Source of the DNA: Pseudoalteromonas viridis
Lineage (GTDB): Bacteria; Pseudomonadota; Gammaproteobacteria; Enterobacterales; Alteromonadaceae
Assembly (NCBI RefSeq): GCF_017742995.1
Contig: NZ_CP072425.1
Coordinates: 2,542,001-2,606,000, forward strand
Length of the DNA stretch: 64,000 nucleotides
Reading direction: 5' to 3'
In this document: positions 23,160 to 46,832 of the stretch, one piece after another
Layout: the number at the start of each line of letters is the position of its first letter
Position numbering within the stretch: position 1 is the first letter of the stretch
Program-made: the position numbers and the translations under genes
Notes under the pieces: model-generated
Seen by the model: only the letters and a program-made list of their open reading frames with translations
Told to the model about the DNA's origin: nothing
The model's database searches: none

Positions 23160-23182
23160 AAATTTCTACTCTCAAAGGAGAA

Positions 23183-24229: not shown

Positions 24230-24341
24230 TGTCTTACTCCCGCTTAAAAGCACTGGATCGCTATTTGTTTTGTGCTGTGGATGATTAATCAAAATGGCAA
24301 AAAGGGGAAGCTATGGGCATGATTTAGCAAGCGGGTAAAAT

Positions 24342-28042: not shown

Positions 28043-31000
28043 CTAATTCTGGTTGCGGTTCAGCCAGCGCTCGGTTAGCCAGCCGGGCTTTTGTCCCCGG
28101 TTCAGTGCACCCAGAACCGAAATGGCGCGCTCCGGGGTGATCCGCTGGGAAGCAATATCCAGATAAACCTGTTGCGCCGTTTTTTTCCGTTTCACGGCCG
28201 CACCGGCATCCAGAAACGACTCGACCACTTGTAACACAAAGCGGGTGAAGCCCGAGAGGTTTTGCCGCTCAGTTGCCTGCTCATCTTTGGCGTTTTGCTG
28301 AGTGAGCCGCTCGGCCAGATGACTGAGTTCGGCCTGAGCAAACTCACTTTGCGCCTGCGGCAGCTTGCCCAGGGTGTGCAGCATCTTAGTGAAATAGTCA
28401 TGCTCAATGCGATTGATCTTATCAAGTTGCGTGAGTTTGTTCAGATCGCGACGAAATTGAGCGTGGCTTATCTGAGGTTCAAGCAGGCGCTCGCAGCTGG
28501 CGTGCAAAGTATGCCAGTGTTGCCAGGCATAAACATAATTAAGCCCCGGGCCTTTAATATTTTGCATGCCCACGATCAGCTGATGTTGCCCGGCAAGGCC
28601 GACACCGGCGATGCGATTGGTGAGCTCGTCTGCGGTGATATGCGGGTTATCCAGCAGCAGTAATTTACTGTGCAGGATACTGCTCAGGACACGTTCCAGC
28701 TGTTTCTGGTGATCCATCAGGTCTTCAAGGCTCAGCAGCGATTGAGCCAGTTGCCAGTTTTGAATGCGCAGCCGGACCAGGCGCTGCTGCGCTTTATCGT
28801 CAATATGTTCAGTCAGTGCAATCCCCAGCAGATCCTCATCATCGAGGTGAGCGGTTTCGAGCCAGGGGCTGTCAAACAGGGCATTGAGCTGCTCGACAAA
28901 TTGCGCAGCGTCGCTGCCACATTTCCACTGCGCCAGCAGGCGCAGCAAATCCTGCTTGTCGTTATTGTCAATCAAACGGTTGATCCGGGTATCCAGCGCC
29001 TGATCCAGATACGCTTCAAAGCCATCGACATTGCTCCCAACCACAACGATATGATCGAAACAGAGATCTTCAATCAGTACCTGAGCGAACACTTTAGAGC
29101 GCGCGACCCGGTCGTTGCGGTTATTGAGCAGGGCAATGGTTTGTGTCTCAGGTTGGTCGTTAAGCTCAAAGAGTCCGAGGCGGCGCCAGTTTTCCAGCGT
29201 GGCAAGGCGCTCATTGGCCGACATACTGTTGACGAAAGACTGAGTCACATGATCCACCGGGGCCGGCGTAAAGTGCTGTAATACGCCCACATCCGGCACA
29301 ATGCGTTCAGCGGTTTCTTTGTACACATAGTCTTTGTCGATACCTATGTACTGCGCCATTTTACATACCAGCGCGATGTTGTCCGGGTGCTCCTCATAGG
29401 GATATAAGGCGCGGATATCCGGGGTGATCTGAAACCCGTCTCCCCAGTGCAACTGGATCAGGGTAGATTGCTTGTGATCTGCCGCGCGGTTAAGGATCGG
29501 GGCCATGGTTTGTTCTGCGGTAAAAATCTGGGTACGGCTGCCAATAAACGCGGCCATTTCCTGCGCGACGTCGACGCCGGTCGGGCCGAGAATATCCTCA
29601 TGATCCGGGTACGTGTTGGTAATGGTGGTAAAATTATCGCGCATCCAGCGGCGCAGGATGCGTACATATCTGGGTGTCAGGCCCATACACTCCCACAAAA
29701 AAACATCTGCACGCACTGAGCGGGCGAAATCCAGCACATCGCTTTGCTCCCAGATACTCGCTTTGTCAAAAGGCCGGAACAGGGGCAGCTCATATTGTTC
29801 TCCCGAGCTGCGGGCGAAAATCATCATGGCTTCACAGCCCGTCGTTTTAGTGACCACGCGCAGTGCCAGGCTACTGAATAAGGCGGCTTTGAGTCGCTCG
29901 GTACCCGACTTGCCACGTGTACCCCAGCCGCCTATGGTGACGGGGATTTGCGCGCGGTTGGTGCGGATTTTACGGTTGAGACGAATGTGCCTCAGCCAGA
30001 AATAGGCGATAAAGGTCGAAACAAAAAACACCAGCTGGCCGATGCTGTTTTGATAAATGGAGTAAAGATACTCCTTAAAGCTGTAACCCAGATTGACCAG
30101 CACACCCGGTACACCGGCGCGGGCAAACAACTTGCTAATGCCCGCCTCAAGGGGAAAGTCACAGTCCAGTTCACTGCCATACGGTTTAAACTCCAGAGCA
30201 AAACCGAGTTTACGTAAGCGTGCCAGGTAGTTTTGCTGCTCCAGTTCATTGCCTTTGCGCAGGGCATCTATTTCGGCATAGTTCACCGACAGCTGCCAGT
30301 AGGCTCGCACACGTTGCCAGACATGCTTTGGCGGGGTGACCACTAAAATGCCATCGGGCGTATAGTTTTTGCAACTGGTTTTAAGGTGATCCTGGCTCAA
30401 TACGGACAGCAGATAGTCGGGCAGCGGCAAATGGGGACGGGCGCTTGCTTCTTTCAGGTGATAGAGCGCTTCACCGGGGACGTTGGTAGCGCTGATCTCG
30501 GCGGTTGTGCAGCTGGGCACATGTAACTGCGCCGAGGGGATTTTAGCACTGGTGTGGCTAAAGCTTTGACGTTTGTCGGTACTTGGGCTGAAAAACTCAT
30601 GCCATACCCGCCAGAATCTGCGCCGGCGTTTATAGCCAACGATGATTCGCCAGCCTTGCTTGTCGCGATACGCATTGAAGCTTTGTTCATGCTGGGCCAG
30701 CATGCTGAGCGCCCGGCCCAATGTGTCTTGGTCGATGTCCCCCGGCAGGTAAACGGTCTCCTGCTCTGTTAACTGCTGGGCAAGCTGGGCATGTAAACTT
30801 TGTTGAGTGAAGCTAATCAGCTGCTCCCGAGTGCGGGTAATATAGCGCCGCACGGCCAGGCTGGGTTCACAGTCCAATGCCTGATTCAGCACCTTGATGT
30901 AGTTTTGTGCCAGTGCAGCATCCTGACTCACCGCATCATCGTCGAGCGGCATCTCAACCGCTTGGTTGAGCATCAGCCTGGGGCTTTGCTCTAACAACAT

Positions 31001-32152
31001 GCGTTTGACTTCAAGGCATTCTTTGCCAAGCAGAAGTGAGCGCCATAAGTTAAATGCGTAACCATCGGTGGCAAAGCGCGCGGCGGTGAGTTGTTTGACC
31101 AAGGTGAAGCGCACGGCATCAACCGTTTCATCGGCAAAGCGTTGTTCAAGCAATGTTTTAGCGAGTTTATCCGGCAGGTTGGGGAGTTGCTCTATGCACA
31201 CTTGCCTCACCCGGGCAAACGGGTGCTGGGCTAACTCCTGTAGCAAAGGAATGTCTCGCTCTGCCAGTGGGTATTTGTTGGCCAGAATGCGCGGCATCGC
31301 GGCGACAATAAACAGCTGGTCGTTACGCTTTTGCGCAGGTGTGTTGTCGCGCTCGCTAGTTTCCACATAGGCCCACATGTAGCTGCGCACAAAGGTCGGA
31401 CGCTGGTGGATCAAAATCTCCAGGATGTCCACCACGGCCTGATAGGGGGTGTTTTCGGCATCCAGCAGCTCAATCAACTCAGCAACCAGCTCACTGTCCA
31501 GTTCCGGATCGGCTTTGAATTCGTTGATCAAAGACACCTGGTTGACCAAGGCGCGGATCATACCGTGGCGCACATGGGCATTGTTACTGGTGGCCATCAG
31601 GCGCAGGAAAAACGGTTGCAGATCCAGTTTCTTCCAGGCTTTATCCAGGTTGTCTTCCGACAGCCTGAGGTAGCGGTTGGTCAGTGCGCCCAGCTTGGCA
31701 ATAAAAAAGCGCAGATCTTGCTCTAAGTCGGCAACTAGGGTTTGATAGCGCCCTATCACGGCGCCTTCGTCAAACCACCGGGAAAAGGCCTGTTTATCTT
31801 GTTGCAGCTGGGTGCCCGAGGCGCCCAGTGTTTCTGCATACTTGAGGATATGCAGTTGTTTCTCGGTGGCCAGCTCAGCCTTACCGAGCCTTTCAACAAA
31901 CGACTGATAATCGGCATCATGGCCCTCGAGCTGCTCATGCAATCGCTCAATTTTATGGCGCAAAAACGCAATGGTCTGCAGCAACTGCCAGTAGTCCAGC
32001 TGCTCGTCTTTTGGCTGGTTTTGTAATAGCTCCCAGCCGGCCAGCTCTTCGAGCAGCTGATGGTATTTGTGACGGTGCAGGTTTAGCCAGAACTTTTCCG
32101 TATCGGCGAATAAAATGGCCTGAAGCTGGGATTTTAATTGATTATCTGCCAT
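28043..32152 (-). CDS. pgsB: Giant PgsB/CapB-like poly-gamma-glutamate (amide) ligase fused to helical-repeat domain
   Basis: 1369 residues, over three times the roughly 390 of Bacillus PgsB. Residues about 700-1110 match the PgsB/CapB Mur-ligase-like enzyme: a membrane helix (LVFFVSTFIAYFWLRHI), the ATP loop GWGTRGKSGTERL (about 740), KTTGCEAM, EQSDVLDFARSVRADVFLWECMGLTPRYV and ITNTYPDHEDILGPTGVDVAQEMA. The N-terminal 690 residues are largely helical, with HEAT-like pairs (HPFARVRQVCIEQLPNLPD); the last 260 are also helical. The family joins glutamates by gamma-amide bonds using ATP. It is the last gene of the operon and overlaps the barrel gene by 11 bases. The actual monomer is not known. 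Confidence 0.85.
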   Translation of the reverse strand: MADNQLKSQLQAILFADTEKFWLNLHRHKYHQLLEELAGWELLQNQPKDEQLDYWQLLQTIAFLRHKIERLHEQLEGHDADYQSFVERLGKAELATEKQLHILKYAETLGASGTQLQQDKQAFSRWFDEGAVIGRYQTLVADLEQDLRFFIAKLGALTNRYLRLSEDNLDKAWKKLDLQPFFLRLMATSNNAHVRHGMIRALVNQVSLINEFKADPELDSELVAELIELLDAENTPYQAVVDILEILIHQRPTFVRSYMWAYVETSERDNTPAQKRNDQLFIVAAMPRILANKYPLAERDIPLLQELAQHPFARVRQVCIEQLPNLPDKLAKTLLEQRFADETVDAVRFTLVKQLTAARFATDGYAFNLWRSLLLGKECLEVKRMLLEQSPRLMLNQAVEMPLDDDAVSQDAALAQNYIKVLNQALDCEPSLAVRRYITRTREQLISFTQQSLHAQLAQQLTEQETVYLPGDIDQDTLGRALSMLAQHEQSFNAYRDKQGWRIIVGYKRRRRFWRVWHEFFSPSTDKRQSFSHTSAKIPSAQLHVPSCTTAEISATNVPGEALYHLKEASARPHLPLPDYLLSVLSQDHLKTSCKNYTPDGILVVTPPKHVWQRVRAYWQLSVNYAEIDALRKGNELEQQNYLARLRKLGFALEFKPYGSELDCDFPLEAGISKLFARAGVPGVLVNLGYSFKEYLYSIYQNSIGQLVFFVSTFIAYFWLRHIRLNRKIRTNRAQIPVTIGGWGTRGKSGTERLKAALFSSLALRVVTKTTGCEAMMIFARSSGEQYELPLFRPFDKASIWEQSDVLDFARSVRADVFLWECMGLTPRYVRILRRWMRDNFTTITNTYPDHEDILGPTGVDVAQEMAAFIGSRTQIFTAEQTMAPILNRAADHKQSTLIQLHWGDGFQITPDIRALYPYEEHPDNIALVCKMAQYIGIDKDYVYKETAERIVPDVGVLQHFTPAPVDHVTQSFVNSMSANERLATLENWRRLGLFELNDQPETQTIALLNNRNDRVARSKVFAQVLIEDLCFDHIVVVGSNVDGFEAYLDQALDTRINRLIDNNDKQDLLRLLAQWKCGSDAAQFVEQLNALFDSPWLETAHLDDEDLLGIALTEHIDDKAQQRLVRLRIQNWQLAQSLLSLEDLMDHQKQLERVLSSILHSKLLLLDNPHITADELTNRIAGVGLAGQHQLIVGMQNIKGPGLNYVYAWQHWHTLHASCERLLEPQISHAQFRRDLNKLTQLDKINRIEHDYFTKMLHTLGKLPQAQSEFAQAELSHLAERLTQQNAKDEQATERQNLSGFTRFVLQVVESFLDAGAAVKRKKTAQQVYLDIASQRITPERAISVLGALNRGQKPGWLTERWLNRNQN

Positions 32153-35100
32153 ACAGGTCCTGCTCTAAAAAATGCGTCAGTTGCAGTGATTCAAAAATGA
32201 TCTCGTCGTGGGCAAATGGCCCAAAGCCACTGCGTTGCAAGTTGCCCAGGGTCACTTCTAAGCGGACGCTGTGATTGTTTCTGAACCAGTCCTGTGTCCA
32301 GCTCAGGCTTACCCAGCCACCGGTGTGCTCAGTGAAGTCAAACAGCGTTTGCCAGCTTACTGTGCTCAGGTATTGCCAGGTTGCGTTAGGTCTGTGGTCA
32401 TCGGCAAATACGTAGCTGCTGCTCAGGCCAGCCGAGAAAATATGGCCCTGATAATATTGCTGCCAGACGCCACTGAGTGACGCCACGTCCAGTGAGGTCC
32501 AGTCCGAGTTAGATGTCGTCGTGAGCTGAGCGCTGAGCTGGCTGTCTACCCGGCTCTGATGACGAATACGATAGCCGCCACGCCAGCCGTCACTGTGGTT
32601 GTGACGATAAAAGTTAAACATGGCATTGCTGATGGTTTCATCCGCCAGGTATTCGGCTTTGTCTATGCTGGTATAGTAATAAAAAGGCTGCCACCACCAC
32701 TGATGACGCCAGTGCTGATCTTCTCGCCAGATCTCGCCTATTGCCACCGTCCACTGACTGGTCAGGTGGGTTTCCCGGCTCTGCGGTGACTCCTGCCAGC
32801 GGTTATACCACTGCGCTTTGGCAAACCAGTCGTCTTCATCATCGAGCCAGTCGTACAAGCCGTTAATGCTGAACGAGGGTTCGCTGGTGCTGTTCAGACG
32901 GAAAAAGCCCTCCAGCCGATACCAGTGCTGTTTATAGCGGTTACGCAGTCGAATGCCAAGGTCCAGCGTATGCTCTGAGCCCAGTGGCTCACTGCTTTGA
33001 TAGATCCCATCACGATTATATTGCATTACGCCTTCCACATGGGTCAGGTTGCCATTGGCCTGCATAACGGGCTCGTGATAGCTGTGCTCAGTCTGGGTAT
33101 ATACCAGTTCAGGATCTGCCACTCGGTAAGGCACGACGGGCGGTGCCACAGCCAGTTTATGGCGATTGGGGTCCAGCTGCCAGCGATAGAGCCTGGCCAG
33201 GCTCGCCGTTTGTGGTGCCAGGGTGATCAGGCCGGCGGGGTAGAATCCCGACTGCTCGCGTCGCGCATTATGCTCGACATATTCCAGCTTGAGCACCGCG
33301 TCTTTACTGAGTTTTGCGGTGATAGGGTTTGCTTCATCGCCATAATAGAACAGCTGCTCAGCCGCTAACTCTATGGCCTGCCAGCGACCCTGCTGATAGG
33401 CCTCGACTTCCACACTCAGCAATTGCGCGGCAAATGGGTTAAGCCAGCGCACTATTAGGTTGCCAGCGTCGAGATCCGCGCGAGTCAGGCCTAGCTCACT
33501 GCGCCCGTCATCAAGCGGCCAGTTAATCGTGCCTGCTGCGCGCTCAATACTGACCTGCGGACGCTCTTGTAGTTGCAGTAGCTCGGCGTTCGAGAAGTGA
33601 AACACCAGCCTGACCTGCAAAGCGGCAAGCTCGCGCAAGTCCAGCGCCAGGCTATGATTGGGACGTAAGATCAGCCCGGGCAGCGCATCATTACGACTTG
33701 TATGACGGCTAAACTGTTCAGCGCTGCTGCGCTTTAATAGCGCAGATAAATCGATCAGCTGAGTGCCAGCATAATTCTGATACGTGTCAAACGCTTGCCA
33801 GTGTCCAAAGCTCTGAATACGGCTATACAGAATATCCAGTGGCGCCACCTCACCGCGCTGCATCAACTTGGCTGACAGGGCGGTGAATTCATGCTCACTG
33901 AGCGACTGGGATTCAAGCCTTAGCAGGGCATTGAGCAGTAAAGTGCGCTGTGCGGCGACCGACGGCTCACCACTCACCGGTGTTTGATAGAGCAGGGACA
34001 TAAAGTCTTGCTGCCAAAGTACACCTGCAAGGTCCTGGCTGTAAGTGAGGCTGTGAGTCGGGGGCAGGGCATCAAATTGCAATAAGAGTAACTGGGTGCT
34101 GCTGAGGGTTAATTGTTCCCCGCCACGCAGTTTGAAATAGCCGCTACTGGCAATAGACAGGCGTGGCTGGTTGTCGTCATCGATATGCAGCATGCTGGAC
34201 GCCGGTACATCGTCAAAAACGGGCATGATTTTACGCAGCTCACCCTGATGTGCATGTAACCAGGAGATCTGACCCTGCTCGGTGTCGACCGCCTTTGCCC
34301 GGGCGCTGACCTTGAGTATCATAGGCTGATGCGCGGTGATGGTAAGTGGCTGGCCAGCAAGCGGGTAGGCACTTGTGTTGCTGGTCTCACTGAGCACGGT
34401 GCTAACGCCAAAGTGACGCACTGAATAATCAAGTACGGGCGGCTCGCTTACCGGTTGCGTATAACCGAGTTGCTCTTTGAGCACTTGCAGGGTGTCATCC
34501 TCAGTGCGCAAGTCATGGCCCAGCCACAATGCAAAGAGGTTTTGCTGAAGCTCTGCAAAGCTTTCGATCAGAGCGTCTCGACAGTCAGGTAAGGCGGTGT
34601 ACCACAGACTGCATAATCCCTGAATACTGTGGATGGCCTGGGTGTTTTGATAGTGCCGCAACAGTTGCTGCGCCGCATAACGTTGTAGCGCCGGATAAGG
34701 GTGGCTCAGCAATGCCCCCAGGTAACGCTCTGCAGTGTTGTGCTCGCCCAGCGCCCGAAAGGCTGCAATGCGCAGCTGCCAGGCTCGGATCACCACTTCT
34801 TTATTCGGGCTGTCAATCAGGGCTTTGAGCACCGGCAGAGCTTGCTGTGGATCTTGCTGAACCTGCATTTCGGCTTCGCCAAGGCGGTAGTGCCAATGGC
34901 TGGCGCTGAGGCTATCCGGGCTGTGCATATGGTCTGTGTGGGTCAGAGAAAAACGAGACAGGCCCTGCTGATAGCTATGAGCAAGGCGTTGTAGTTGTTG
35001 CTCCAGGCGATAGGCAATGGCCGGGCTTTTATCCCGAAGCAGTCCCGGGCGCTGATATAACAGCGCATTATTTGGTAAAGATTGCAGCTCCCTGACCCGC

Positions 35101-36482
35101 AGGGCCAGGTCAACCTGTCCATCATCACTGACGGATACACTGAGCTGCTCGGCATCCAGAGGCAGTGGCAGTGACAGCATGGCAAAGTGATCCGAGGGCA
35201 ACAGGTTGATGGTGTGGCGGTAACTGTCAATGACCAGCGTCAGCTCCGTGGCTGAAGCTGTGCGTACATACAGCCGCAGCCTTGGAGACAAGCGCTGTTG
35301 AGCGGGTAACTCAAACTGCACCGCGCCGGATACCCTGTGATAATGCAAAGTCTGGTCTTGCACAGTAGCATACAGGCGATCTATGGCTGGCCGATAGGCA
35401 TGAACAACCGGCTGCTCGCTGACATGGCTGGTGTAAGGTTGCTCGGACTTTTTGGGCAGTAAGAAGCGCACTGTCGCTAACGTGTCTTGCAGCTCTGACA
35501 GGCGCTGTCGTCCCAGCGCGCTGGCCCTTGCAATATCCGCCGACTGCAGCGCTGAAATATCATGGTGCTGATAGACCTGCTCCAGTTGCCACTGTAAGTT
35601 ATCGGTCCAGTAGGGGTTAAACAGCGACTCCGGCCAGGTTTGCGCGGCATCGGTATCGTATAAGCCCCGCTCCATTTGGATCAGATTAAGCAAGGTATCG
35701 CCTTGCGCCGTAATGCGCAGGTAACTCCCGGCAGGCACCGCGATATAGTCGCTGCTACTCAGACCAAGGACCTGATCATCATCGAAAGTAACATCATGAC
35801 CAAGCCGGTGTTTGCGCAGTTGAGGGGTAAACTCATCGGCAGGCGTGTCGTTCAATGAGAGCTGACTGATCAGCGCATCATCCAGCCTGGCTGTCACTAT
35901 GCCACGCTGAGCTTGCGGCTGAGCCTGGCTGTGCAGAATACGTCGGGCATTTAACCTGAGCTTGATGGCCTTGGCAAAAAACAATTGCACACTCTGGCCG
36001 TCGTTCAGGCGATACAAGGTGGTATGCGTTTGTGCTTCATAGACTTGCATGGCTGGCAGGGCCAGCTTGACCGGAATACGAAACGGGTCTCTGTGACTGT
36101 GAAACTGACCCTGCCAGGCCGACACTGGCTGGATCTCATCAGTGGGATTATAAAAGCGCAGCAGCCGGGTTGTCGCGGTTGCAGGCAACTGGCACTGATG
36201 TTGTTCACAGCGCAACTCTGCGCGGGTAACGCGCTGCATGGCAGAAGGAGATTGCCCCTGAAACACCTGCACGGTGTGCGGTGAGTTTTCCAGGCTCAGC
36301 CAGTTTCCTGCGGGCAGCAAAATAAAGCGCGACCGTCTGGGCTCCAGGTTGATATCCGCGGCACTGTGGCGCAACTGCAGTGTGTCAGGTGCATACCAGT
36401 CGGGGGCGCTGTGCAGTGCGGCAGGTTTTGCCTGCACAGGCAACAGAAGGCTTATCAGAATCAACACAATCAAATAAGGCAT
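32142..36482 (-). CDS. Very large exported protein with helical repeats and C-terminal outer-membrane barrel; candidate polymer exporter
   Basis: 1446 residues with a signal peptide (MPYLIVLILISLLLPVQA). The first 480 or so residues are beta-rich. A helical, TPR/HEAT-like segment follows (about 520-660: EAEMQVQQDPQQALPVLKALI, RAWQLRIAAFRALGEHNTAERYLGALL), then more beta-rich sequence. The last 320 residues alternate amphipathic strands rich in Trp and Tyr (HWYRLEGFFRLN, WFAKAQWYNRWQ, HQWWWQPFYYYTS, GHIFSAGLSSSYVF, WVSLSWTQDWF, HSVRLEVTLGN), as in an outer-membrane barrel. A repeat-plus-barrel layout recalls PgaA, BcsC and AlgK/AlgE, exporters of other polymers. Overlaps both neighbours. Function inferred. 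Confidence 0.72.
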   Translation of the reverse strand: MPYLIVLILISLLLPVQAKPAALHSAPDWYAPDTLQLRHSAADINLEPRRSRFILLPAGNWLSLENSPHTVQVFQGQSPSAMQRVTRAELRCEQHQCQLPATATTRLLRFYNPTDEIQPVSAWQGQFHSHRDPFRIPVKLALPAMQVYEAQTHTTLYRLNDGQSVQLFFAKAIKLRLNARRILHSQAQPQAQRGIVTARLDDALISQLSLNDTPADEFTPQLRKHRLGHDVTFDDDQVLGLSSSDYIAVPAGSYLRITAQGDTLLNLIQMERGLYDTDAAQTWPESLFNPYWTDNLQWQLEQVYQHHDISALQSADIARASALGRQRLSELQDTLATVRFLLPKKSEQPYTSHVSEQPVVHAYRPAIDRLYATVQDQTLHYHRVSGAVQFELPAQQRLSPRLRLYVRTASATELTLVIDSYRHTINLLPSDHFAMLSLPLPLDAEQLSVSVSDDGQVDLALRVRELQSLPNNALLYQRPGLLRDKSPAIAYRLEQQLQRLAHSYQQGLSRFSLTHTDHMHSPDSLSASHWHYRLGEAEMQVQQDPQQALPVLKALIDSPNKEVVIRAWQLRIAAFRALGEHNTAERYLGALLSHPYPALQRYAAQQLLRHYQNTQAIHSIQGLCSLWYTALPDCRDALIESFAELQQNLFALWLGHDLRTEDDTLQVLKEQLGYTQPVSEPPVLDYSVRHFGVSTVLSETSNTSAYPLAGQPLTITAHQPMILKVSARAKAVDTEQGQISWLHAHQGELRKIMPVFDDVPASSMLHIDDDNQPRLSIASSGYFKLRGGEQLTLSSTQLLLLQFDALPPTHSLTYSQDLAGVLWQQDFMSLLYQTPVSGEPSVAAQRTLLLNALLRLESQSLSEHEFTALSAKLMQRGEVAPLDILYSRIQSFGHWQAFDTYQNYAGTQLIDLSALLKRSSAEQFSRHTSRNDALPGLILRPNHSLALDLRELAALQVRLVFHFSNAELLQLQERPQVSIERAAGTINWPLDDGRSELGLTRADLDAGNLIVRWLNPFAAQLLSVEVEAYQQGRWQAIELAAEQLFYYGDEANPITAKLSKDAVLKLEYVEHNARREQSGFYPAGLITLAPQTASLARLYRWQLDPNRHKLAVAPPVVPYRVADPELVYTQTEHSYHEPVMQANGNLTHVEGVMQYNRDGIYQSSEPLGSEHTLDLGIRLRNRYKQHWYRLEGFFRLNSTSEPSFSINGLYDWLDDEDDWFAKAQWYNRWQESPQSRETHLTSQWTVAIGEIWREDQHWRHQWWWQPFYYYTSIDKAEYLADETISNAMFNFYRHNHSDGWRGGYRIRHQSRVDSQLSAQLTTTSNSDWTSLDVASLSGVWQQYYQGHIFSAGLSSSYVFADDHRPNATWQYLSTVSWQTLFDFTEHTGGWVSLSWTQDWFRNNHSVRLEVTLGNLQRSGFGPFAHDEIIFESLQLTHFLEQDLYGR

Positions 36483-37228
36483 AGAGCAAACTGTTCCAGA
36501 GTATCGGGCTGCGCGACCAGCCGCTCGCGCATCGGGCGACTGATCTCAATATGAATAAAATAGCCTGCCGGTAATCCCAGGCGATGCATAACATTGCGTG
36601 TACCACCCAGTTCAGACACCTGCTGCGGGTACTGATAGGTGTGTACGCTCAGCTTTGACAGGCACAGGCGCAATTGTGACAAAGCAGCAGTGCTTTGTCT
36701 GCCCTGACTGATAATGAAATCGGCCTGACGGGCTTGCGGTGTGCGGCGTTTATCCTGAGCAAAGCCATGTAATTGGTACAGATGACGGGTTGGGTAACGT
36801 CTGGCAAACGCCTGCGCGGCCGCCGCATGCAGCCCGCTTGGGCGGTGTGAGTAGTCCATACTATACAAGTCGGGGCTGGGCGCGTTGCGATGTTCGGTGT
36901 TGATCACCATCACCTGACAGTGGGTCGCAAAGACCGCCTTACCTATTTCTCCGGTCAGCATATCGTGAAACTGGTGCGGTATGGACAACATGCAAGCCGA
37001 ACCTTGTGGGCGATAATACAAATCGCCGCCGCCAAAGTGCGCTGAACTGGCCTCTAGTTTGACCAGGCCCGACTGGCTGCGTAATTGCCAGGGCGGCAGG
37101 GCTGCAGGCTTTGCAAACCAGTTGTACAGCATTTGCCAGCTGGGGCTTTGCAACTCAGCCGTTTCGCTGGCCAGTCCATTACCTGTCAGCAGTAATAGTG
37201 ATAAAAACAGCAGTTTTTTAATATTCAT
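36470..37228 (-). CDS. Exported PGA-hydrolase/N-formylglutamate amidohydrolase-like protein
   Basis: ATG at 37228 opens a signal peptide (MNIKKLLFLSLLLLTGNGLAS); GGTGG precedes. 252 residues. Motifs IPHQFHDMLTGEIG (about 83), INTEHRN, YQLHGF and a final GYFIHIEISRPMRERL look like the zinc-binding and C-terminal motifs of the gamma-PGA hydrolase and N-formylglutamate amidohydrolase groups. In the operon it would trim, release or proofread the polymer in the periplasm, as CapD or PgdS do in Bacillus. It overlaps both neighbours. A degenerate copy of the same domain seems to be fused to the CapC-like protein. Family assignment is by eye. Confidence 0.6.
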   Translation of the reverse strand: MNIKKLLFLSLLLLTGNGLASETAELQSPSWQMLYNWFAKPAALPPWQLRSQSGLVKLEASSAHFGGGDLYYRPQGSACMLSIPHQFHDMLTGEIGKAVFATHCQVMVINTEHRNAPSPDLYSMDYSHRPSGLHAAAAQAFARRYPTRHLYQLHGFAQDKRRTPQARQADFIISQGRQSTAALSQLRLCLSKLSVHTYQYPQQVSELGGTRNVMHRLGLPAGYFIHIEISRPMRERLVAQPDTLEQFALCLI

Positions 37229-39515
37229 GTTGCCACCATTGAGGTTGGGGGGGCGGTGTTGCATATTCTTCGAGCAGGGCAAACCACAGGGTCTGCTCTG
37301 CGGACACGCTCAGCTCATTGAGCGCGTCAATATCCGAGCCGATCGTCAGCGTGACAGAGGGATAAGCCGTCAGCGCCGGATTTTTCGGGTGCAGTAAAAA
37401 GGCAGGCAACCCGTGCTCGGGGGCCAGTGCATAACGCTTACGGGCAATGCTGTACTCATCGGTGATACTGTGGCTGAAACGGCCGTCCAGCTTAGTCTGG
37501 ATGAGCAGCGGATCTGCCGAATGTGTGCCTCGGGTAAAGGGTTTTATCACAATCGCCATTGGTTTGTCCTTGCCCCGGTAGTCCTGCTTCAGAGTCTGGC
37601 CCGGTTGTAATTGGAATAAACGCACTTTCCAGTAGTCACGTGGCTTGCCCAGATTGATAAAGTGCCGCGAAGACGGGTCCGATAAATTGGGCAGGGGATC
37701 AAGCTGTGTGATGTCCTGCTCAGTGTAGCGGATCCCGTTATCACTAAGGGTTATGACTCTGGGAATGGGGGCAGTCAAACTTCCCAACTCCTGAATGCTG
37801 CGCTGAGCACTGTGCAATGTCGTCAGGCTAGTCAGCGGCGCATACTGAAACGGCGCTGGGGGCTCTGGTGGGGCAAAGTACTTGGGCGGACTGTAAACCA
37901 GCGCGGTATTGGATACCGGCAGGCGCACAAACAGCGCTTGAGACAAGTAGCCCGTTTGCTTTTCCTCAAGCGGTGGTGGCGCACTGAACAAGCGTACTTT
38001 GAGGATCTTTTGCTGTTCAATAAAATCAAATTCATTGTCGGCACTTTGGCTGAACCAGGCCCCGACCTCAGTAAAGCCGGTTTGTGGTGCATCGCACAAA
38101 GTGGCACACACATAATTCTGATGATGCATGGCGCTGTGTCGGCTTTGCAGTTTTACGGCGACCGCACTGGTGCTGCTGAGCGTGATTCTGTGTGCCTGCG
38201 GGCTTAGGCGCAAAAAGCGCTTTTCGCTATCGGTAATGGCTTCCCGCCGGGTTTCCGGGGTAATTAAGCGGTCGAACCCACCGCTTTGGCCCGACAGAGT
38301 CAGGGTCTCTGTGCGCAAGCGTTGCAGCTGGTTATCATAAATGTTGAGCTGCATGGTGCTGCCGGCCGGGCCGCGCATATCCAGCTGGATATCACTGCCA
38401 CCTTGTACTGTGTAGGCAACCTGACTGGCTTCATCGAGCTGATAATAGTAGCTGTGTAAGGGCGCAATGATCTGATCCTGCTGGTCACGCCAGGTGGTGA
38501 TCATCTCCGTTTGGGAGTGAATTGCTAAAAGTCCGGGTTGTAACTCTGGGAGCAAAAAGCGTGTCGGGTCGTCAGTCTCTGTCAGGTTAAGAGTTTGCGG
38601 CGCCTGACGCTGTGTGAGATCGTGCCATATCAGCTGTAAATCGCTAACATCGCCCTGTGTTTGTACGCTTAAACTACCGGTGTTGGTCAGGCGAATTGAG
38701 GCGGACAGACCCGCCCGGGTATAGTATCCATCCAAATCAAATTGCTCGGCAGAAAAGTCATAGGTGATCACATTGTAGGGCAGGGATTCATACAGAATAT
38801 CGGCGTCAAAATCGATCCCCGGGATCCCTTGCGGGGCGAGTTTTCGCCAGTCGTAAGAGACGGCGTTGGCAACTTGCTGAGGCTGCAAACCGCTGCTGCC
38901 AAGTGTGTGGTAGCTGGTCATCCGCTCCCGCCACTGCTCGGGCAACTTCAGCCAGGTGCGGGTGACATCATCCGCATTGGTAGGGGTTTTCCCATGAATA
39001 CGCACCACCACGCCGCGCAGGCTGGGTTCTTCGGGAATTAATCGCAGAGAAATTTTACTGGCCCGGGTCAGCTGTTGCCAGTCGACGTAAAACGACTGGC
39101 CAGATGTCACGGCCAGTGCCTGTCTGTCTTCAATCAGTTGTTTAACCTGTTGCTGACCTTCTTCCAGTGCAAGTTTAGAGGCATGATGATAGACATGCTT
39201 TTCCAGCTCGTTGTCCTGACTGTCCAGCAAGCGATATTCAATGGCATAATTGATAGGCCGATCAAACACGGTCTGGCTGGCAAAAATGGCATTCGACAAC
39301 ACCCGGATTGCAACGGTCCTGGAAGTGGGGAACGTATAAATGAGCGGGCGGTCCGGGCTGAGCCAGTGCACCACCGAGCGGGTTTCCTCTTCACTGCGCG
39401 CCGCAATGCGCTCAGCTGAATTCAGCCAGACGTATACATGCAGCGCCACACGGTATCCTGCCAGCAATAACACAATCAACAGCAGGGCTTGCAACAGACG
39501 TTTAATCCAGTACAT
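37218..39515 (-). CDS. Membrane-anchored large periplasmic protein of the polymer operon
   Basis: 765 residues. One N-terminal membrane helix (about 5-30) and then a long, beta-rich periplasmic part with no motif I recognise. Segments such as RLTNTGSLSVQTQGDVSDLQ, YTVQGGSDIQLDMRGPAGSTMQLNIYD and HRITLSSTSAVAVKL look like successive beta-sandwiches. A Pro-rich stretch (YFAPPEPPAPFQYAPL) lies near 575, and the end is PPPQPQWWQHEY. GGAGGG precedes the start. Overlaps the CapC-like gene before it by 14 bases and the hydrolase-like gene after it by 11. Likely a periplasmic bridge between the inner-membrane synthase and the outer-membrane barrel; this is inference from position and topology. Confidence 0.7.
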   Translation of the reverse strand: MYWIKRLLQALLLIVLLLAGYRVALHVYVWLNSAERIAARSEEETRSVVHWLSPDRPLIYTFPTSRTVAIRVLSNAIFASQTVFDRPINYAIEYRLLDSQDNELEKHVYHHASKLALEEGQQQVKQLIEDRQALAVTSGQSFYVDWQQLTRASKISLRLIPEEPSLRGVVVRIHGKTPTNADDVTRTWLKLPEQWRERMTSYHTLGSSGLQPQQVANAVSYDWRKLAPQGIPGIDFDADILYESLPYNVITYDFSAEQFDLDGYYTRAGLSASIRLTNTGSLSVQTQGDVSDLQLIWHDLTQRQAPQTLNLTETDDPTRFLLPELQPGLLAIHSQTEMITTWRDQQDQIIAPLHSYYYQLDEASQVAYTVQGGSDIQLDMRGPAGSTMQLNIYDNQLQRLRTETLTLSGQSGGFDRLITPETRREAITDSEKRFLRLSPQAHRITLSSTSAVAVKLQSRHSAMHHQNYVCATLCDAPQTGFTEVGAWFSQSADNEFDFIEQQKILKVRLFSAPPPLEEKQTGYLSQALFVRLPVSNTALVYSPPKYFAPPEPPAPFQYAPLTSLTTLHSAQRSIQELGSLTAPIPRVITLSDNGIRYTEQDITQLDPLPNLSDPSSRHFINLGKPRDYWKVRLFQLQPGQTLKQDYRGKDKPMAIVIKPFTRGTHSADPLLIQTKLDGRFSHSITDEYSIARKRYALAPEHGLPAFLLHPKNPALTAYPSVTLTIGSDIDALNELSVSAEQTLWFALLEEYATPPPQPQWWQHEY

Positions 39516-42500
39516 TTGGCCCTCCCTGCATCATGTTTTCAAGCGCCTCGAGGGTGATTAATCGGTTACGCTGAGCAAGGTACACGGCCGCGGTTTTGCC
39601 GGCCAGTTGCACGTGCAAGCCGAGTAATTGGTTGTCAGACAGGCGGATAGCCTGTAACTGGCAGCGCGGCAGCTCATCACAGAGTGCACTTAGCCAAGGC
39701 AGATGCTGGGTTTGTGCGTAGCGACTTATGGTCCTGTCGAGCTTTTGCATTTGCTCGTCTGATAGCTTAACCCAGTCATTCGGTCCGGTAGCCGCAAGGC
39801 GCAGTGGCATAAACCGGGGCAAGGTGGATACGGCGAGTAACCTTTCCTGCAGCGCTTGTTCGGAAACGGCATAGTGTTGCTTAAAGTCAGAGGCCAGCCA
39901 CAGGGTGGCCAGCTCACTGTCGGGGCTAAACAGGCGATAGCCCGATTGCGGGGATGAGCCAATTTCCAGCCCTCGGGTGGCAACCTGGCCCGACACTTTT
40001 TCGACACTAATGCCCAATCGCGCCATGGCCTTGCGCAGTGCATTAATGGTGGAGATATGACGAAAATCAGGCTGGGTAAATTGATAGGCAAGGGCGCTTG
40101 GGCGGATCTGTGATGGCGCACTGTGGCTGCGAACCTGCAAGCTCAATACCGGCATACCCGGGTTATGACGCACCGCACTTTGGTGCACCACATTATACAG
40201 CGTTCGTGTATTGGTAGGTGCCATCACGTTTGCCTCTTCACTGGCATAAGGGTGAGCACCGGCAATGAGCAATGCCCGTGCACCACTGGTCTGGAACAAA
40301 TCCGTTGCAAACTGCAAGGTATTACTTTCAAACAGGGGCCGGGGCACCTGAATGGTCAGCGGCTGGGTCGTATTGAGGTTGATAGCGTAAAACCCCTGTC
40401 CTTGCTGATAGTAGTGTATTTCGGGTAAAGGACTGATAACCACCAGGCGATGAGCATTGTTGATGACCAGTTGCAGTCGATAGCCCACCATATTGGCCAG
40501 TCGGTTAAGCTGTTCCAGACGATTAAGATCATCTTCATTGATAGCGCGCGAGCGCAAGGCATGAGAGAGCTTAAACAGGGGTTCGAGCACTTCGTATTCC
40601 CACAGCGCAGCTTCATTTTCTTCGAGCATACGAAAATGACCACTGCCCTTGGCGCTGATATGCTGAGAAAACTGAGTGACCAGTTCGTCCAGTGGCAGGT
40701 TAAGTTGCTCAACGGGATATTGCACCGCATTGGCGTTGCTTCTTGCTGTATGTGAAAGCAGCGTGGAGTAACTCAGATTGTCAAAAAAGGTTTCGAGCAT
40801 GGCGCCCTGATAACCTGGATAGGGCAGATTGTCTTCGCTGAGCAGACCAAACTGGCTGCGTTCAAACCCCAGTAACCGCGTGAGCTGGCGCTGTGACAGC
40901 GATTCGGGCAGCTGATTGTAGATCCAAAACTGGCTTTGCTCTGCAAAGCGTGTGAGCTTTAACTGTGGCCGGGTATATTGGTTAATGGCCCTCAGCTGAA
41001 GCACTTCGTCACTGTTCAGGGCGGCAACAAAGGCCTGATAATAGGCACTTTGAGGCCGTGTTTGCTGACTTGCCACTGAGGGCGTCACCCGGGTGCCGAG
41101 CGCCAGGGCTCTGCTGCCTAAAATGGCAAAAAGCTGCCCGGCCGCATCCCCTGCCAGACGTTCACTGGTCGGGTAGGGCACCGTGACTATGTGCTCTCGC
41201 ACGGGAGATTTAGCAAGGGCAAAAAAGCCTCTTGGGTGGGTTGTCTGGGTGTCTTTGATCACCAAAGTGGCCGGGTTATCAATCAGCGCAAAACCCAGCT
41301 CCGCCAGCACCAGCGCGGCGCGCTGCTGAGTGTCCGGGTCCTGACGATTTTCATTCAGTAACCTGATTGCGCTTCTGAAACGTTGTAACTGCTGGGCTTG
41401 CTGGTAGTGACTGAGATTCAGCAAGTCATATCTTGCTGTATAAAGATAGCTTTTGTACTCACTAACGTGGTGGCTAAGCGGTGCGCTTTGGACTTTTTCT
41501 ACCTCGATGGGCTGCACCGGGGGTTGGATCAGCGATGGCACAAACATGATGGCAAAGCCAATGCCAAATGCCAGTAAGCCGCCGACCATCGAGGTCTGGA
41601 AAGTGGCACGCAGCACCAGGCCCAGGGCATTTTTTTGATATATTTTGAGTGCCAGTAACGTTGATAGCATATAGCCAAAGGCAAAGGTATCCGTGGCTTT
41701 AAGGGTTGGGAAATAGTCAACCACGAAGTAATTGAGCACGAGTTTGTAAAAAAAGCCGATATTGAAAAACAATAACAACAGCCGCGCCCCTTCAAAATTA
41801 GCATGCTTGAGGCGGGTCAGATTGAGCAAGATGGCCCCGAGCGATAAGATCACTGTGGTTTCGATAAAGGTGGTGAGCAGTTTACTGGGCTGCATAAGTT
41901 GCAGGGCCAGCAAGGCCGGGAGCATGATGCCATTGAACTCCCAGCCGTAGCGGATATTAGCCCGGGAGGCCAAAAAGGCGGTGATCACCAGAATGATGTA
42001 GGCTTTGGGCGCAGCCAGTATAGAGGCGGCGACGGCTTCATACATGATGGCCAGGTTCGCAATACTGAAATTGGTAAACGGCATCAGGACAAAGCGCACT
42101 AAAATAAAGGTAATGGCCAGCTGTATGAGCGTTACCCGCATACCATAACGAAAACCCCCATTCCACATCACGTTGGCGGTCAGTGCAATGATCACCAGGC
42201 CCAGGCTATATAGCTGTCCGGCGTAATCAAAGGTAATGTCCCACAGCGCCAGTACCTGGCCAATCTGGGGCCAGAACAAGGTATCCATAAATACCCTGAC
42301 CAGAATACTGATCAAAATAATGGCAAAGAACCTGTCTCGGCCAAACATTTCAGCATACCCCAGCCGCTCCATCGCCACTTTGGCGCTGCATCGCATCAGT
42401 ACATAGACCACTATGGCTTCAAGGATAATGACCACGGCGGAGACCGGGCTGACAATCAGCAAAGGCACCAGGTAGCCGGGCACCACCAGACCGGTAAGCG

Positions 42501-42615
42501 GAAAGCCAAACCGCAAGTTCAGCATACATACCACGGCAATCCCCACCCAGACGGTGGTGATAACAGATTGGCCGAGTCCGCTGCCATCCGGGAAAAGTGG
42601 TAACACCCAGTCCAT
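39502..42615 (-). CDS. pgsC: Duplicated CapC/PgsC-like membrane protein fused to large periplasmic domain
   Basis: 1037 residues. The first 370 form about 11-12 membrane helices, with two regions that each resemble CapC/PgsC (normally about 150 residues): GFPLTGLVVPGYLVPLLIVSP near 37 and YGWEFNGIMLPALLALQLMQP near 222. This suggests an internal duplication. The remaining 660 residues are soluble and should be periplasmic. Residues about 755-910 (VPRPLFESNT, AGAHPYASEEANV, TLYNVVHQ, PGMPVLSLQVRSHS) can be aligned by eye with the separate hydrolase-like protein, but its His and Glu motifs are changed. PgsC partners PgsB in chain synthesis. Shares one base with the gene before it and overlaps the gene after it. 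Confidence 0.78.
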   Translation of the reverse strand: MDWVLPLFPDGSGLGQSVITTVWVGIAVVCMLNLRFGFPLTGLVVPGYLVPLLIVSPVSAVVIILEAIVVYVLMRCSAKVAMERLGYAEMFGRDRFFAIILISILVRVFMDTLFWPQIGQVLALWDITFDYAGQLYSLGLVIIALTANVMWNGGFRYGMRVTLIQLAITFILVRFVLMPFTNFSIANLAIMYEAVAASILAAPKAYIILVITAFLASRANIRYGWEFNGIMLPALLALQLMQPSKLLTTFIETTVILSLGAILLNLTRLKHANFEGARLLLLFFNIGFFYKLVLNYFVVDYFPTLKATDTFAFGYMLSTLLALKIYQKNALGLVLRATFQTSMVGGLLAFGIGFAIMFVPSLIQPPVQPIEVEKVQSAPLSHHVSEYKSYLYTARYDLLNLSHYQQAQQLQRFRSAIRLLNENRQDPDTQQRAALVLAELGFALIDNPATLVIKDTQTTHPRGFFALAKSPVREHIVTVPYPTSERLAGDAAGQLFAILGSRALALGTRVTPSVASQQTRPQSAYYQAFVAALNSDEVLQLRAINQYTRPQLKLTRFAEQSQFWIYNQLPESLSQRQLTRLLGFERSQFGLLSEDNLPYPGYQGAMLETFFDNLSYSTLLSHTARSNANAVQYPVEQLNLPLDELVTQFSQHISAKGSGHFRMLEENEAALWEYEVLEPLFKLSHALRSRAINEDDLNRLEQLNRLANMVGYRLQLVINNAHRLVVISPLPEIHYYQQGQGFYAINLNTTQPLTIQVPRPLFESNTLQFATDLFQTSGARALLIAGAHPYASEEANVMAPTNTRTLYNVVHQSAVRHNPGMPVLSLQVRSHSAPSQIRPSALAYQFTQPDFRHISTINALRKAMARLGISVEKVSGQVATRGLEIGSSPQSGYRLFSPDSELATLWLASDFKQHYAVSEQALQERLLAVSTLPRFMPLRLAATGPNDWVKLSDEQMQKLDRTISRYAQTQHLPWLSALCDELPRCQLQAIRLSDNQLLGLHVQLAGKTAAVYLAQRNRLITLEALENMMQGGPNVLD

Positions 42616-44585: not shown

Positions 44586-44612
44586 ACGCCCCCCGAGTTA
44601 GTATGGATACGT

Positions 44613-46832
44613 CTAGTTGTAAGCAGAAAAATGCAGTGTCAGTGTCACCGAGTTGCTGGCCTGTACGGCGATAAAATCCATCCCATGCATACGTTCTGCC
44701 TGCCATAACCCATTGTTTAGACTAAGAGGTTTTTGCCAGGAGATCAATGCGAGCTGGTCCAACATGAGGGTTGCTTCACCTTTTTCCGGTGGTGCCTGCT
44801 TGAATGCCAGTTTAACGGCGCGTGCTGGCAGTTGTTCCGGTCCCAGGGTCTGACTGTCATCGGGCAGGCTGATATCGTGTCGGAAGGTTTTCCAGTCGTA
44901 GCTGCCAGGTTTAATCAGGCTGACTTCTTCACTAGAGAATTCCAGGTTATCTTCGGCAGTGACTATGGTCAGCTCTGCACTCACATCACCCGCGTTATCC
45001 CCTTTGGCATAGCCAAACAGGCTCAATTCGGAATAGGCCTGAAGTGTCGATTCGGCCGGTGTGATGGGCATAGTCCGAAGTGTTTGTTTAAAGGGCATGC
45101 GCAGCGGGCGATTATTAAACTGGGTACGTGACAGGCACATGCCTTGCAACCCGCGCATTGCACCAGTGAGGCAGGGGCTGATGTCGTCACTTTCATGTTC
45201 CCAGCGGGTTACTTCATTGGTCTCATTATCGTTGTCCCAGTCTTCAAAATCGCCAAACCACATTAAATCCCGACCAAGGGTCATCTCGGCCGTGTCTGTG
45301 CTACTGATCTTACTCACGAAGGCATGGCTGGGTGCGTATTCGCGCAGATCAATGATGTGCTCGCCTGAGGGCAAAGTCAGGGTAACGGTATCAATTTCCT
45401 GAGGGGCGGGGGCTTGGTTAAAATACACATCGCCAAATCCTGGTCCCGGCACAATCGCAACTTCGGGGCCTGAAAATTCGGCCAGCCGGCGGAGCAGGTA
45501 GTCACTTAAAAACCCACCAACCAGCTTGGGTTGGTAGTCTTCCAGATACACAGGATAGGCTCTGGCCGATTGTGTTTTCGGTGTTTGGGTCGGGTCGATG
45601 GTGACTGACACGGCTACGCCCAGCAAGGTTTCATGGCGATTCTGTTCAAACACAAAGTTACCTAGCCCAAGTAATGCGGGCACCTCGTTATAAAGTGCAA
45701 AGCCCTGAGCGACGTGCGGGTGGTGGGCTATCATCAGGTCGGGCTCCCGGCGGCTGACAAACTCAAAGCGGTTGTCTATATAACGCGTAGGGGCATAAGA
45801 ATACTCATCACCACCATGTAGCTGAACGATGGCATAATCGCTGTTATCTCTGGCTTGTTCAACAGCGGCTCTGAGTGCGGTACTGTCGGTCAGATCGGCA
45901 GCACCGCCTTTGTCAGCAGTGGCAATATAAGTGACAAGGTGGTCGTCGCCGGTAATCGACGTGGCTGACACTAGGCCCAGCGTGGTGTTGCCTACCTCAA
46001 CCAATCTGGGTGCATAAGCCTCTGCGGTGTTATTACCGGCACCACTGTGGCTGAAACCCGCTTGCTCGACATATTTTAGGGTGTCTTCCAGCCCTTTTTG
46101 CTGATAGTCAAATACGTGATTATTACCGAGCGCGACATAGTCGATGCCTATCTCTGTTAACCCTTGCAAAGTGTCTGGCAGTGAGAAAAAGGCAAATTCT
46201 TTGCTCGGATGTACAGTCGTGGGGGCTGCAAGGACTGGCGATTCCAGGTTGACCGAGGCAAAGTCGGCGCTCGCCATGATAGGCTTGACAAATTGTGTCA
46301 GCGCAATAGCACTACTGGCCGCGTTTGCGGGCCTGATCATCGCCTCTTCGACATCTGGCAACAGGTTGCCCATGGTGGTCAATGAAGGATCCATGTAACG
46401 CCGACCAAACATGGTATCTCCGCCAAACATCAGTTCACTGCTGGTGGCACTGAGGCGCTTTAACTGAACTGCCAGCGGGTTATCCTGATAATCACGGCTA
46501 TTGACTGTGACTACCGCGCGTTGATAGCCGGGCTTGCTCAGGGTCAGCGTAAGCATGCCAGTGTTGAGATCTGTCAGGGTCAGCTGGCCTTGTTCATCCG
46601 TGCGATACTCGCTGCCCAGCGCTTCTACGCTGACGTCTGACAGGGCTGCATCGCCCGACCCTTGTAATTGCAGGTTTAAGCCACGTTTTTGGTCTTGTTG
46701 TGTTTGTTCTTGTTGCTGTTGCTGCTCTTGCTCTTGTGCCTGCGTCGGGCCGTTCTCATAAGGGTCTTCCACGGAGCAAGCACTCAGAACATACATAACG
46801 GGAACAAATGGAAGTAACTTGTAAATATTCAA
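44613..46832 (-). CDS. capA: CapA/PgsA-like outer-membrane lipoprotein with extra domains
   Basis: 739 residues from a TTG start (AAGGGG five bases before; no in-frame ATG upstream of the signal). Lipobox LSAC with Cys19, then Ser at +2, which favours the outer membrane. A Gln/Glu-rich linker (about 30-52) is followed by a carboxypeptidase-regulatory-like beta-sandwich (about 55-125). The CapA metallophosphatase-like domain (about 130-470) has MFGGDTMFGRRY, VNLESPVLA, ALGNNHVFDYQQKG, LHGGDEYSY, AHHPHVAQGF and GNFVFE. The C-terminal 250 residues look like a carbohydrate-binding beta-sandwich. CapA/PgsA is needed for PGA assembly or transport. First gene of the operon. Confidence 0.87.
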   Translation of the reverse strand: MNIYKLLPFVPVMYVLSACSVEDPYENGPTQAQEQEQQQQQEQTQQDQKRGLNLQLQGSGDAALSDVSVEALGSEYRTDEQGQLTLTDLNTGMLTLTLSKPGYQRAVVTVNSRDYQDNPLAVQLKRLSATSSELMFGGDTMFGRRYMDPSLTTMGNLLPDVEEAMIRPANAASSAIALTQFVKPIMASADFASVNLESPVLAAPTTVHPSKEFAFFSLPDTLQGLTEIGIDYVALGNNHVFDYQQKGLEDTLKYVEQAGFSHSGAGNNTAEAYAPRLVEVGNTTLGLVSATSITGDDHLVTYIATADKGGAADLTDSTALRAAVEQARDNSDYAIVQLHGGDEYSYAPTRYIDNRFEFVSRREPDLMIAHHPHVAQGFALYNEVPALLGLGNFVFEQNRHETLLGVAVSVTIDPTQTPKTQSARAYPVYLEDYQPKLVGGFLSDYLLRRLAEFSGPEVAIVPGPGFGDVYFNQAPAPQEIDTVTLTLPSGEHIIDLREYAPSHAFVSKISSTDTAEMTLGRDLMWFGDFEDWDNDNETNEVTRWEHESDDISPCLTGAMRGLQGMCLSRTQFNNRPLRMPFKQTLRTMPITPAESTLQAYSELSLFGYAKGDNAGDVSAELTIVTAEDNLEFSSEEVSLIKPGSYDWKTFRHDISLPDDSQTLGPEQLPARAVKLAFKQAPPEKGEATLMLDQLALISWQKPLSLNNGLWQAERMHGMDFIAVQASNSVTLTLHFSAYN

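Follow-up and report, generated by a model that had tools for sequence, protein, structure and literature searches.

A seven-gene operon of Pseudoalteromonas viridis as a probable trans-envelope secretion route for a poly-gamma-glutamate-type polyamide

Introduction

How could a Gram-negative cell make poly-gamma-glutamate (PGA) and deliver it through two membranes? The question is raised by a seven-gene operon of Pseudoalteromonas viridis, which lies in a 64,000-nucleotide stretch of DNA (assembly GCF_017742995.1, contig NZ_CP072425.1, positions 2,542,001 to 2,606,000), the whole of which is referred to here as the window. An earlier note on this DNA had proposed that the operon encodes an envelope-spanning machine for the synthesis and export of an amide polymer. 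The analysis reported here supports that proposal: the operon probably specifies a synthase-dependent system that secretes a gamma-glutamyl-type polyamide, most likely PGA, across the whole envelope. The gene products include a PgsB-type ligase, a tandem CapC membrane protein fused to two apparently inactivated hydrolase-like domains, a small hydrolase-like protein, an anchored periplasmic protein, a large predicted outer-membrane barrel protein, a CHASE2 sensor, and a CapA-like lipoprotein.

The model of PGA capsules in PMC5542703, in the part of that text available, holds CapB and CapC to be mandatory and CapA and CapE to be accessory, allows CapD to lie apart, and names no outer-membrane part. 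In the available part of a 2013 review (PMC3815933), Fusobacterium is the sole Gram-negative in the table of producers, and the term "outer membrane" is missing from the main text. The ligase and CapC are already known. The trans-envelope set and the fusion to a dead hydrolase are undescribed in the literature searched, i.e., no paper describing this gene set was found in one open full-text library, judged by titles and the beginnings of abstracts among the matches listed. The operon presents a complete candidate route for PGA through two membranes, with a testable part for each step, and suggests the idea of a pseudoenzyme in which a dead hydrolase is reused as a polymer guide. If the proposal is right, marine Pseudoalteromonas have a new candidate surface polymer.

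Results

Organization and conservation of the operon

The list of open reading frames (ORFs) of the window contains the seven co-oriented minus-strand ORFs that had been described between positions 28043 and 46832, at the same coordinates, in the same order, and with the same 27-base gap after the first gene (Table 1). The overlaps had been put at 1-14 bases, which holds for those of 1, 14, 13, and 11 bases but not for the fourth and fifth genes, which overlap by 65 bases as listed. This overlap, between the genes of the anchored protein and the small hydrolase-like protein, would be 11 bases if the small gene begins at ATG 37228. That start was taken because a signal-peptide-like stretch, recognized by eye, follows it directly; the stretch stays below the hydropathy threshold used. 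Pfam and NCBIfam family scans were run on all seven window proteins.

A genome scan with CapC patterns gave 70 stretches, 44 of them with a relative, which correspond to 43 distinct loci, all in Pseudoalteromonas; the patterns were built from the window's own CapC protein, so that the scan favours close relatives. All seven proteins are encoded in identical order, with the CapA gene first, in 43 of 43 loci of these other Pseudoalteromonas genomes (the locus end cuts PgsB), with identity falling to 26% in the barrel protein and to 53% in CapC. The CapC gene was found in 64 of 108 Pseudoalteromonas genomes. This patchy presence (not found in 44) could be matched to lifestyle or colony phenotype.

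Beyond the genus, searches were centred on Pseudomonadota, in genome samples that are even draws and not censuses. Six of the 274 genomes of the class sample match the CapC protein at E 0.001: the own genome and three others (G062, G077, and G143) over most of its length, and two by short, weak stretches. The order sample likewise gave matches in six genomes (out of 247), namely, the own genome, one further Pseudoalteromonas, G284, G288, G378, and one short, weak match. A plasmid search with the CapC protein gave no match. In other proteobacterial families, the neighbourhoods that were read show a core of six genes with no CapA at the front. It begins with CHASE2, next to which a response-regulator gene may stand, and continues with CapC, the anchored protein, the small hydrolase-like protein, the barrel, and PgsB. 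Retention of the barrel and CapC genes in other genomes was a point on which the earlier note had made its proposal depend, and both are kept in other families.

In five of these loci (L061, L063, L064, L052, and L053), some genes had at first been identified through their position or through weak matches. Profiles from which the tested sequences were left out still recover the barrel protein (E 5.9e-12 to 1.8e-74), the anchored protein (1e-9 to 2.2e-36), and the CHASE2 protein (1.4e-19 to 1.7e-88), each in searches of three sequences. Gene order is partial in G288, G562, G645, G678, and G710, where contig ends cut the loci. Of the 12 distant genomes, 11 have a member of the hydrolase-like family; in G678, neither a CapC nor a hydrolase-like gene was found, and only the barrel and PgsB genes are seen, at a contig end.

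One distant genome, G558, carries the set split over three contigs, i.e., CHASE2-CapC-anchored protein, hydrolase-barrel, and PgsB. The hydrolase-barrel block is considered truly separate because his-operon-like genes, recognized by eye, precede it, and the retention of all three blocks argues, misassembly apart, for a shared function. At the usual hydrolase/barrel site of this genome, after the anchored-protein gene, lies an ORF for a repetitive, lipoprotein-like protein of 1809 amino acids (aa) (L079, contig C67, 8792-14221, reverse strand). It was considered as a barrel substitute and dropped when the barrel was found on another contig.

Homologues of CapA, CapB, and CapC are all present, as would be expected of an ordinary capBCA capsule locus that lies beside unrelated neighbours by chance. 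This explanation is nevertheless very improbable: the order is constant in all 43 loci and across families, the dispensable member is CapA rather than one of the extra genes, CapC is fused to hydrolase-like domains, and three separated blocks are co-retained. The seven-gene set is real and more than a group of chance neighbours.

The PgsB ligase and the CapC membrane protein

The earlier note had staked its proposal on a match of the PgsB-like domain to the CapB family over its ATP and substrate motifs, and a match that includes the ATP site was found. Residues 709-1055 of the last protein of the operon match TIGR04012 at E 4.9e-62 (209.9 bits; profile positions 5-336 of 380), and the P-loop segment GGWGTRGKSG is invariant in 11 of 11 aligned members. 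A HEAT_2 match (7.2e-5) was found in the same protein; a membrane helix expected ahead of the PgsB domain stays below the hydropathy threshold used, and a sequence search of the PDB with the PgsB protein gave no match at E up to 1. TIGR04012 matches occur in 31 of 299 Pseudomonadota genomes. Seven of these (own included) hold a strong PgsB with 188-214 bits in ORFs of 1109-1431 aa, and the other 24 reach at most 26 bits in ORFs of 426-802 aa, weak matches of the kind that we would expect of FolC/Mur-type ligases. Neither a short separate PgsB nor a single CapC was found at family strength in the sampled Pseudomonadota.

The CapC protein of the window contains two copies of PF14102 (104.8 bits) and scores 42.3 bits with the PgsC equivalog TIGR04011, below its cut-off of 96.45. 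PF14102 is matched by all 19 aligned members of this protein family and, in the Pseudomonadota sample, by 7 of 398 genomes, six of which (own included) exceed the cut-off. Two CapC units lie in one ORF in each of these six, with lengths of 1044-1089 aa in five; the sixth ORF, of 502 aa, is cut by a contig end.

The hydrolase-like protein and the degenerate copies in the CapC protein

Across the 25 aligned members of the small-protein family, residues H88, D92, T95, Q155, H157, G158, N215, E231, and R237 (fragment numbering) are invariant. PF05908, the family of gamma-PGA hydrolases, matches four of these 25 members at E up to 1 (best E 0.0017), a weak direct support, and has no match anywhere in the own genome. 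The motifs are in register with PF05908: PH..D..T with PHGG.IE..T, HG with HG, N with NI, and HIEiS..mR with vQLEls..mR. The zinc ligands named here are putative and are assigned by analogy with PghP, in whose structure the motif residues bind zinc and catalyse. The label "hydrolase-like" given in the earlier note fits the retained motif layout of gamma-PGA hydrolases. In the family scans, the small protein of the window had no useful match, PF05908 included.

The duplicated CapC-like protein had been credited with a large periplasmic part, which is confirmed; the tandem hydrolase-like domains within it had not been seen. In profile comparisons with hhalign, for which all E-values given here are single-pair values, the small-protein profile aligns with residues ~709-921 (copy 2; E 4.5e-8, probability 94.9%) and with residues ~436-548 (copy 1; E 2.6e-6, probability 88.6%), and the periplasmic part matches itself as a repeat (7.9e-13). 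As controls, the best of 60 column shuffles gave E 0.13, and four other operon profiles gave 0.26-0.63. In copy 2, the putative zinc histidines are replaced by Arg759 and Arg829, the Asp by Glu763, and the Glu by Trp906, each invariant in 19 of 19 members. In copy 1, only four of the 19 members have the first His, at a variable position, whereas the second is replaced by arginine (Arg542) in 18. Judged by these alignments, two degenerate relatives of the candidate polymer hydrolase, both predicted to be inactive, follow one another in the periplasmic part of the CapC protein.

The barrel protein and the anchored periplasmic protein

An AlphaFold model was obtained for residues 480-1446 of the barrel protein (mean predicted local distance difference test, pLDDT, 77.5; predicted template modeling score 0.40); like that of the CapC protein, it was made from Pseudoalteromonas sequences only. 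It displays helical repeats (pLDDT mostly 80-90, with weak HEAT/TPR family matches), beta domains, 14 long strands (~1147-1414), and a short C-terminal helix. Foldseek ranks OmpG, a monomeric 14-strand porin, first, with entries at E 7.9e-9 to 7.1e-8 and a target-based template modeling score of 0.58-0.74 for the top four rows. Seven residues of the C-terminal fragment (H297, D314, N326, D333, D362, R365, and E428) are identical in all 15 members, including seven from outside the genus. The outer-membrane exit that had been proposed for the 1446-residue protein is thus supported by a predicted 14-strand barrel.

The anchored protein has no Pfam match at E 0.1. A domain of ~110 residues seems to be common to it and the barrel protein's N-terminal part (hhalign E 9.6e-5, probability 58.6%, unshuffled), as would be fitting if the two proteins each formed half of a single bridge.

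The CapA and CHASE2 proteins

The CapA-like lipoprotein had been counted as a member of the system. It is present in the Pseudoalteromonas operons, and the window protein matches PGA_cap (PF09587) at 8.9e-50, but it is not part of the conserved core: of the 12 distant genomes, which include incomplete ones, just two have a PF09587 match at any site.

The CHASE2-like sensor was rightly recognized, with a match of 0.004 in the window protein, 1.3e-14 in the relative L051, and 2.8e-13 in L080. With 656 aa, the window protein falls short of the 679-934 aa of the relatives that were read from beyond the genus. Weak C-terminal HATPase_c matches (E 0.00027-0.0061) occur in three of the six scanned relatives (L060, L053, and L052), and a response-regulator gene adjoins the CHASE2 gene in 7 of 11 distant loci (Response_reg 7.1e-22 in L080). 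No response-regulator gene lies beside the CHASE2 gene in the window. The kinase end and the response regulator may have been lost in Pseudoalteromonas.

Genomic surroundings and feature coordinates

Divergent from the operon lies a gene for a TyrR-like sigma-54 activator (47097-48653, plus strand; ACT, PAS, AAA, and HTH_50 domains), and across the operon from it are genes for hydroxyphenylpyruvate dioxygenase and fumarylacetoacetase (21713-24292, minus strand), so that genes of tyrosine degradation may surround the operon. Downstream, a POT-family peptide transporter and a DUF642 protein are encoded at 24659-26095 and 26375-27604 (minus strand); that a peptide importer adjoins a polyamide locus may be chance. 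The guanine-plus-cytosine content of the operon is ~0.50-0.55 (4-kb steps), above much of the window, and the 6-16 kb stretch is equally high.

Table 1. Coordinates of the operon genes and of their domains within the window
Feature	Position	Strand	Basis
CapA/PgsA-like lipoprotein, 739 aa	44613..46832	-	PF09587 8.9e-50; TTG start; lipobox-like LSAC by eye
CHASE2 membrane sensor, 656 aa	42615..44585	-	CHASE2 match E 0.004
Polytopic membrane protein, 1037 aa, with CapC/PgsC in tandem and a large periplasmic part	39502..42615	-	PF14102 4.9e-30, two stretches
Two CapC units, membrane part, residues 1-370	41506..42615	-	PF14102 matches, hydropathy
Degenerate hydrolase-like copy 1, residues ~436-548 of CapC protein	40972..41310	-	hhalign E 2.6e-6
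Degenerate hydrolase-like copy 2, residues ~709-921 of CapC protein	39853..40491	-	hhalign E 4.5e-8
Periplasmic protein with N-terminal membrane anchor, 765 aa	37218..39515	-	Hydropathy; conserved position
Gamma-PGA-hydrolase-like protein, probably secreted	36470..37228	-	ORF listed to 37282 (270 aa); ATG start inferred
Predicted outer-membrane barrel protein, 1446 aa, which also has helical repeats and periplasmic beta domains	32142..36482	-	Hydrophobic N-terminus; model
Helical repeat segment of barrel protein, residues ~527-671	34470..34904	-	Nine consecutive helices in AlphaFold model
Predicted C-terminal beta-barrel, 14 long strands, residues ~1147-1414	32241..33044	-	AlphaFold model; Foldseek to OmpG
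PgsB ligase, 1369 aa, extended by ~700 residues at the N-terminus (HEAT-like) and by ~310 at the C-terminus	28043..32152	-	TIGR04012
PgsB (FolC/Mur-ligase-type) catalytic domain, residues 709-1055	28988..30028	-	TIGR04012; P-loop GGWGTRGKSG

Discussion

Proposed mode of action

From the gene set, its order, the homologies, the loss of active-site residues, and the barrel-like model, we infer a complex, its enzyme activities, its product, and the passage of that product through the barrel. PgsB, on the cytosolic side and carrying large scaffold extensions, would activate carboxylates with ATP and extend the chain, and together with the tandem CapC it would form an inner-membrane polymerase and channel. 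The chain would then enter the two dead hydrolase-like domains of the CapC protein, whose arginines at the zinc-ligand sites may bind the polyanion and hand it on. The bridge would consist of the anchored periplasmic protein and of the barrel protein's helical repeats and periplasmic domains, and the 14-strand barrel would be the exit. The small secreted hydrolase may trim, release, or clear chains left in the periplasm, and the CHASE2 protein may take care of sensing and regulation. The chances seem about even that this represents a new class of polyamide secretion, in which a tandem dead-hydrolase sleeve on the polymerase leads to a repeat-plus-14-strand-barrel exporter, and that it is the predominant PGA-type machinery of Pseudomonadota.

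Counter-evidence and alternative explanations

Several results weigh against this proposal. With its 209.9 bits, the PgsB domain lies below the curated equivalog cut-off of TIGR04012 (222.7), and so do all seven strong Pseudomonadota members (188-214 bits). Simple capBCA sets exist in Pseudomonadota, since Francisella has one, and its capB and capC are reported to be unnecessary for the capsule in the available part of PMC4688374, which gives no proven polyglutamate product for this set. The low scores and the Francisella case would suit a ligase that joins another carboxylate amino acid, makes a mixed or capped chain, or adds short amide chains onto an envelope acceptor (lipid, protein, or peptidoglycan). 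This alternative is unlikely: the accompanying hydrolase has the motif layout of gamma-PGA hydrolases, and arginines replace the putative zinc histidines in the dead copies, fitting a polyanion.

Further counter-evidence concerns the other parts of the proposed system. PF05908 has no match in the small protein of the window, and the comparison of the small-protein profile with six PF05908 proteins (one a 126-residue fragment, two nearly identical) gave a modest E 2.4e-4 (probability 43%, 165 columns), the best of 60 column shuffles reaching E 0.066. An earlier comparison with two PF05908 proteins gave E 0.0023, and 0.44 in global mode. Compared directly with PF05908, the CapC periplasmic part gave no significant match (E 0.043), and a PDB sequence search with the hydrolase profile gave no match at E up to 5. 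Foldseek returned nothing at E <=0.001 for the model of the CapC periplasmic part; its top 25 rows include zinc hydrolases of the succinyl-/formyl-glutamate type, e.g., desuccinylases and aspartoacylase (E 0.2-1.7), as well as unrelated folds. AlphaFold confidence is mostly below 50 for the CapC membrane part, so no structural claim is made for it. Bacillus PgsA is reported to be necessary for synthesis (PMC5751247, available part), yet most distant genomes come without CapA; PGA production without CapA has also been reported, according to the available part of PMC5542703.

The nearest barrel, OmpG, is a plain porin and no polymer exporter, and the exporters PgaA, BcsC, and AlgE are absent from the 50 Foldseek rows listed. 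A small-molecule porin as nearest relative would favour a periplasmic polyamide, serving as an osmolyte or envelope spacer, over a secreted capsule: PgsB and CapC would make the chain, the dead domains hold it, the small hydrolase set its level, and the barrel leak fragments or anchor the bridge. The rlo operon of Pseudomonas aeruginosa is the closest to this operon in logic, which makes a periplasmic polyamide with a hydrolase-set level the main rival. As described in the available part of PMC12239564, rloABC combines a cytosolic ATP-grasp protein, an inactive transglutaminase fused to seven membrane helices, and a secreted polyglutamate-cutting protease, a three-part logic that recurs here. 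PF14402, the rlo-type family of seven-helix transglutaminase proteins, is moreover absent from all 25 sampled Pseudoalteromonas (own included) and present in 9 of 16 other relatives. On the other hand, a 1446-residue barrel with bridge domains, retained even in a split operon, would be costly for a plain porin. A homology of CapC to the seven-helix transglutaminase family was considered and rejected, the match being a short segment at a non-significant E 0.033-0.087 (reversed control 0.12), and both systems are compatible, G288 carrying both. A periplasmic polyamide is unlikely, though a stronger contender than a ligase with another substrate, and secretion of a PGA-type chain remains the preferred reading.

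Comparison with known systems

The sfz stalk cluster of Zetaproteobacteria resembles the operon as a six-gene candidate locus for an envelope polymer in marine Gram-negatives, but was rejected as a match: CapC, PgsB, and CHASE2 are missing from the available main text of PMC8250860, where the Sfz2 gene measures only ~2.1 kb, and the available part of PMC10734525 likewise contains none of the three. The "CapC" of the Lipocone paper (PMC12419801, available part) is "CapCone" and unrelated. For Zobellella denitrificans, a known producer, the literature search gave nothing useful.

With rloABC, the operon shares a cytosolic enzyme of an amide-forming type, a polytopic protein fused to an inactive hydrolase-type domain, and a secreted hydrolase. 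It differs in having other families at all three positions, and the available part of the rlo paper describes no barrel or bridge proteins. No Pfam match to PF14402, ATP-grasp, or retropepsin was found in the seven proteins, nor PF14402 in the own genome. Among the relatives, G276 encodes a divergent PF14402 protein of ~807 aa (C27:35160-35804, L117; 136.8 bits vs 339-368 in the other eight), which may be another rlo-type variant.

The gamma-PGA hydrolases of PF05908 (PghP, YndL, and YoqZ) and the small protein have the same order of His, Asp/Glu, His-Gly, Asn, and Glu...Arg motifs. In the small protein, however, the His-to-acid spacing is one residue shorter and the start is signal-peptide-like, and two dead copies lie in the CapC protein. 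The PgsBCA/CapBCA systems of Bacillus (and, by citation, Fusobacterium) are matched by a PgsB-type ligase, CapC, a gamma-PGA-hydrolase-like gene, and, in Pseudoalteromonas, CapA. Instead of compact separate genes, PgsB here lies inside a 1369-aa fusion and CapC is a tandem with ~670 periplasmic residues; four extra genes, including that of the outer-membrane barrel, are present, and CapA was not found in 10 of the 12 distant genomes.

The Pga, Bcs, and Alg systems have, like the proposed one, an inner-membrane synthase, periplasmic helical repeats, an outer-membrane barrel, and a hydrolase in the operon. Their exporters have 16 or 18 strands, vs 14 in the model here; the seven proteins come without a glycosyltransferase, PilZ, or cyclic di-GMP-receptor match in Pfam and NCBIfam, and the proposed product is an amide rather than a glycosidic polymer. 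If the proposal holds, amide polymers would join the synthase-dependent secretion systems known for polysaccharides.

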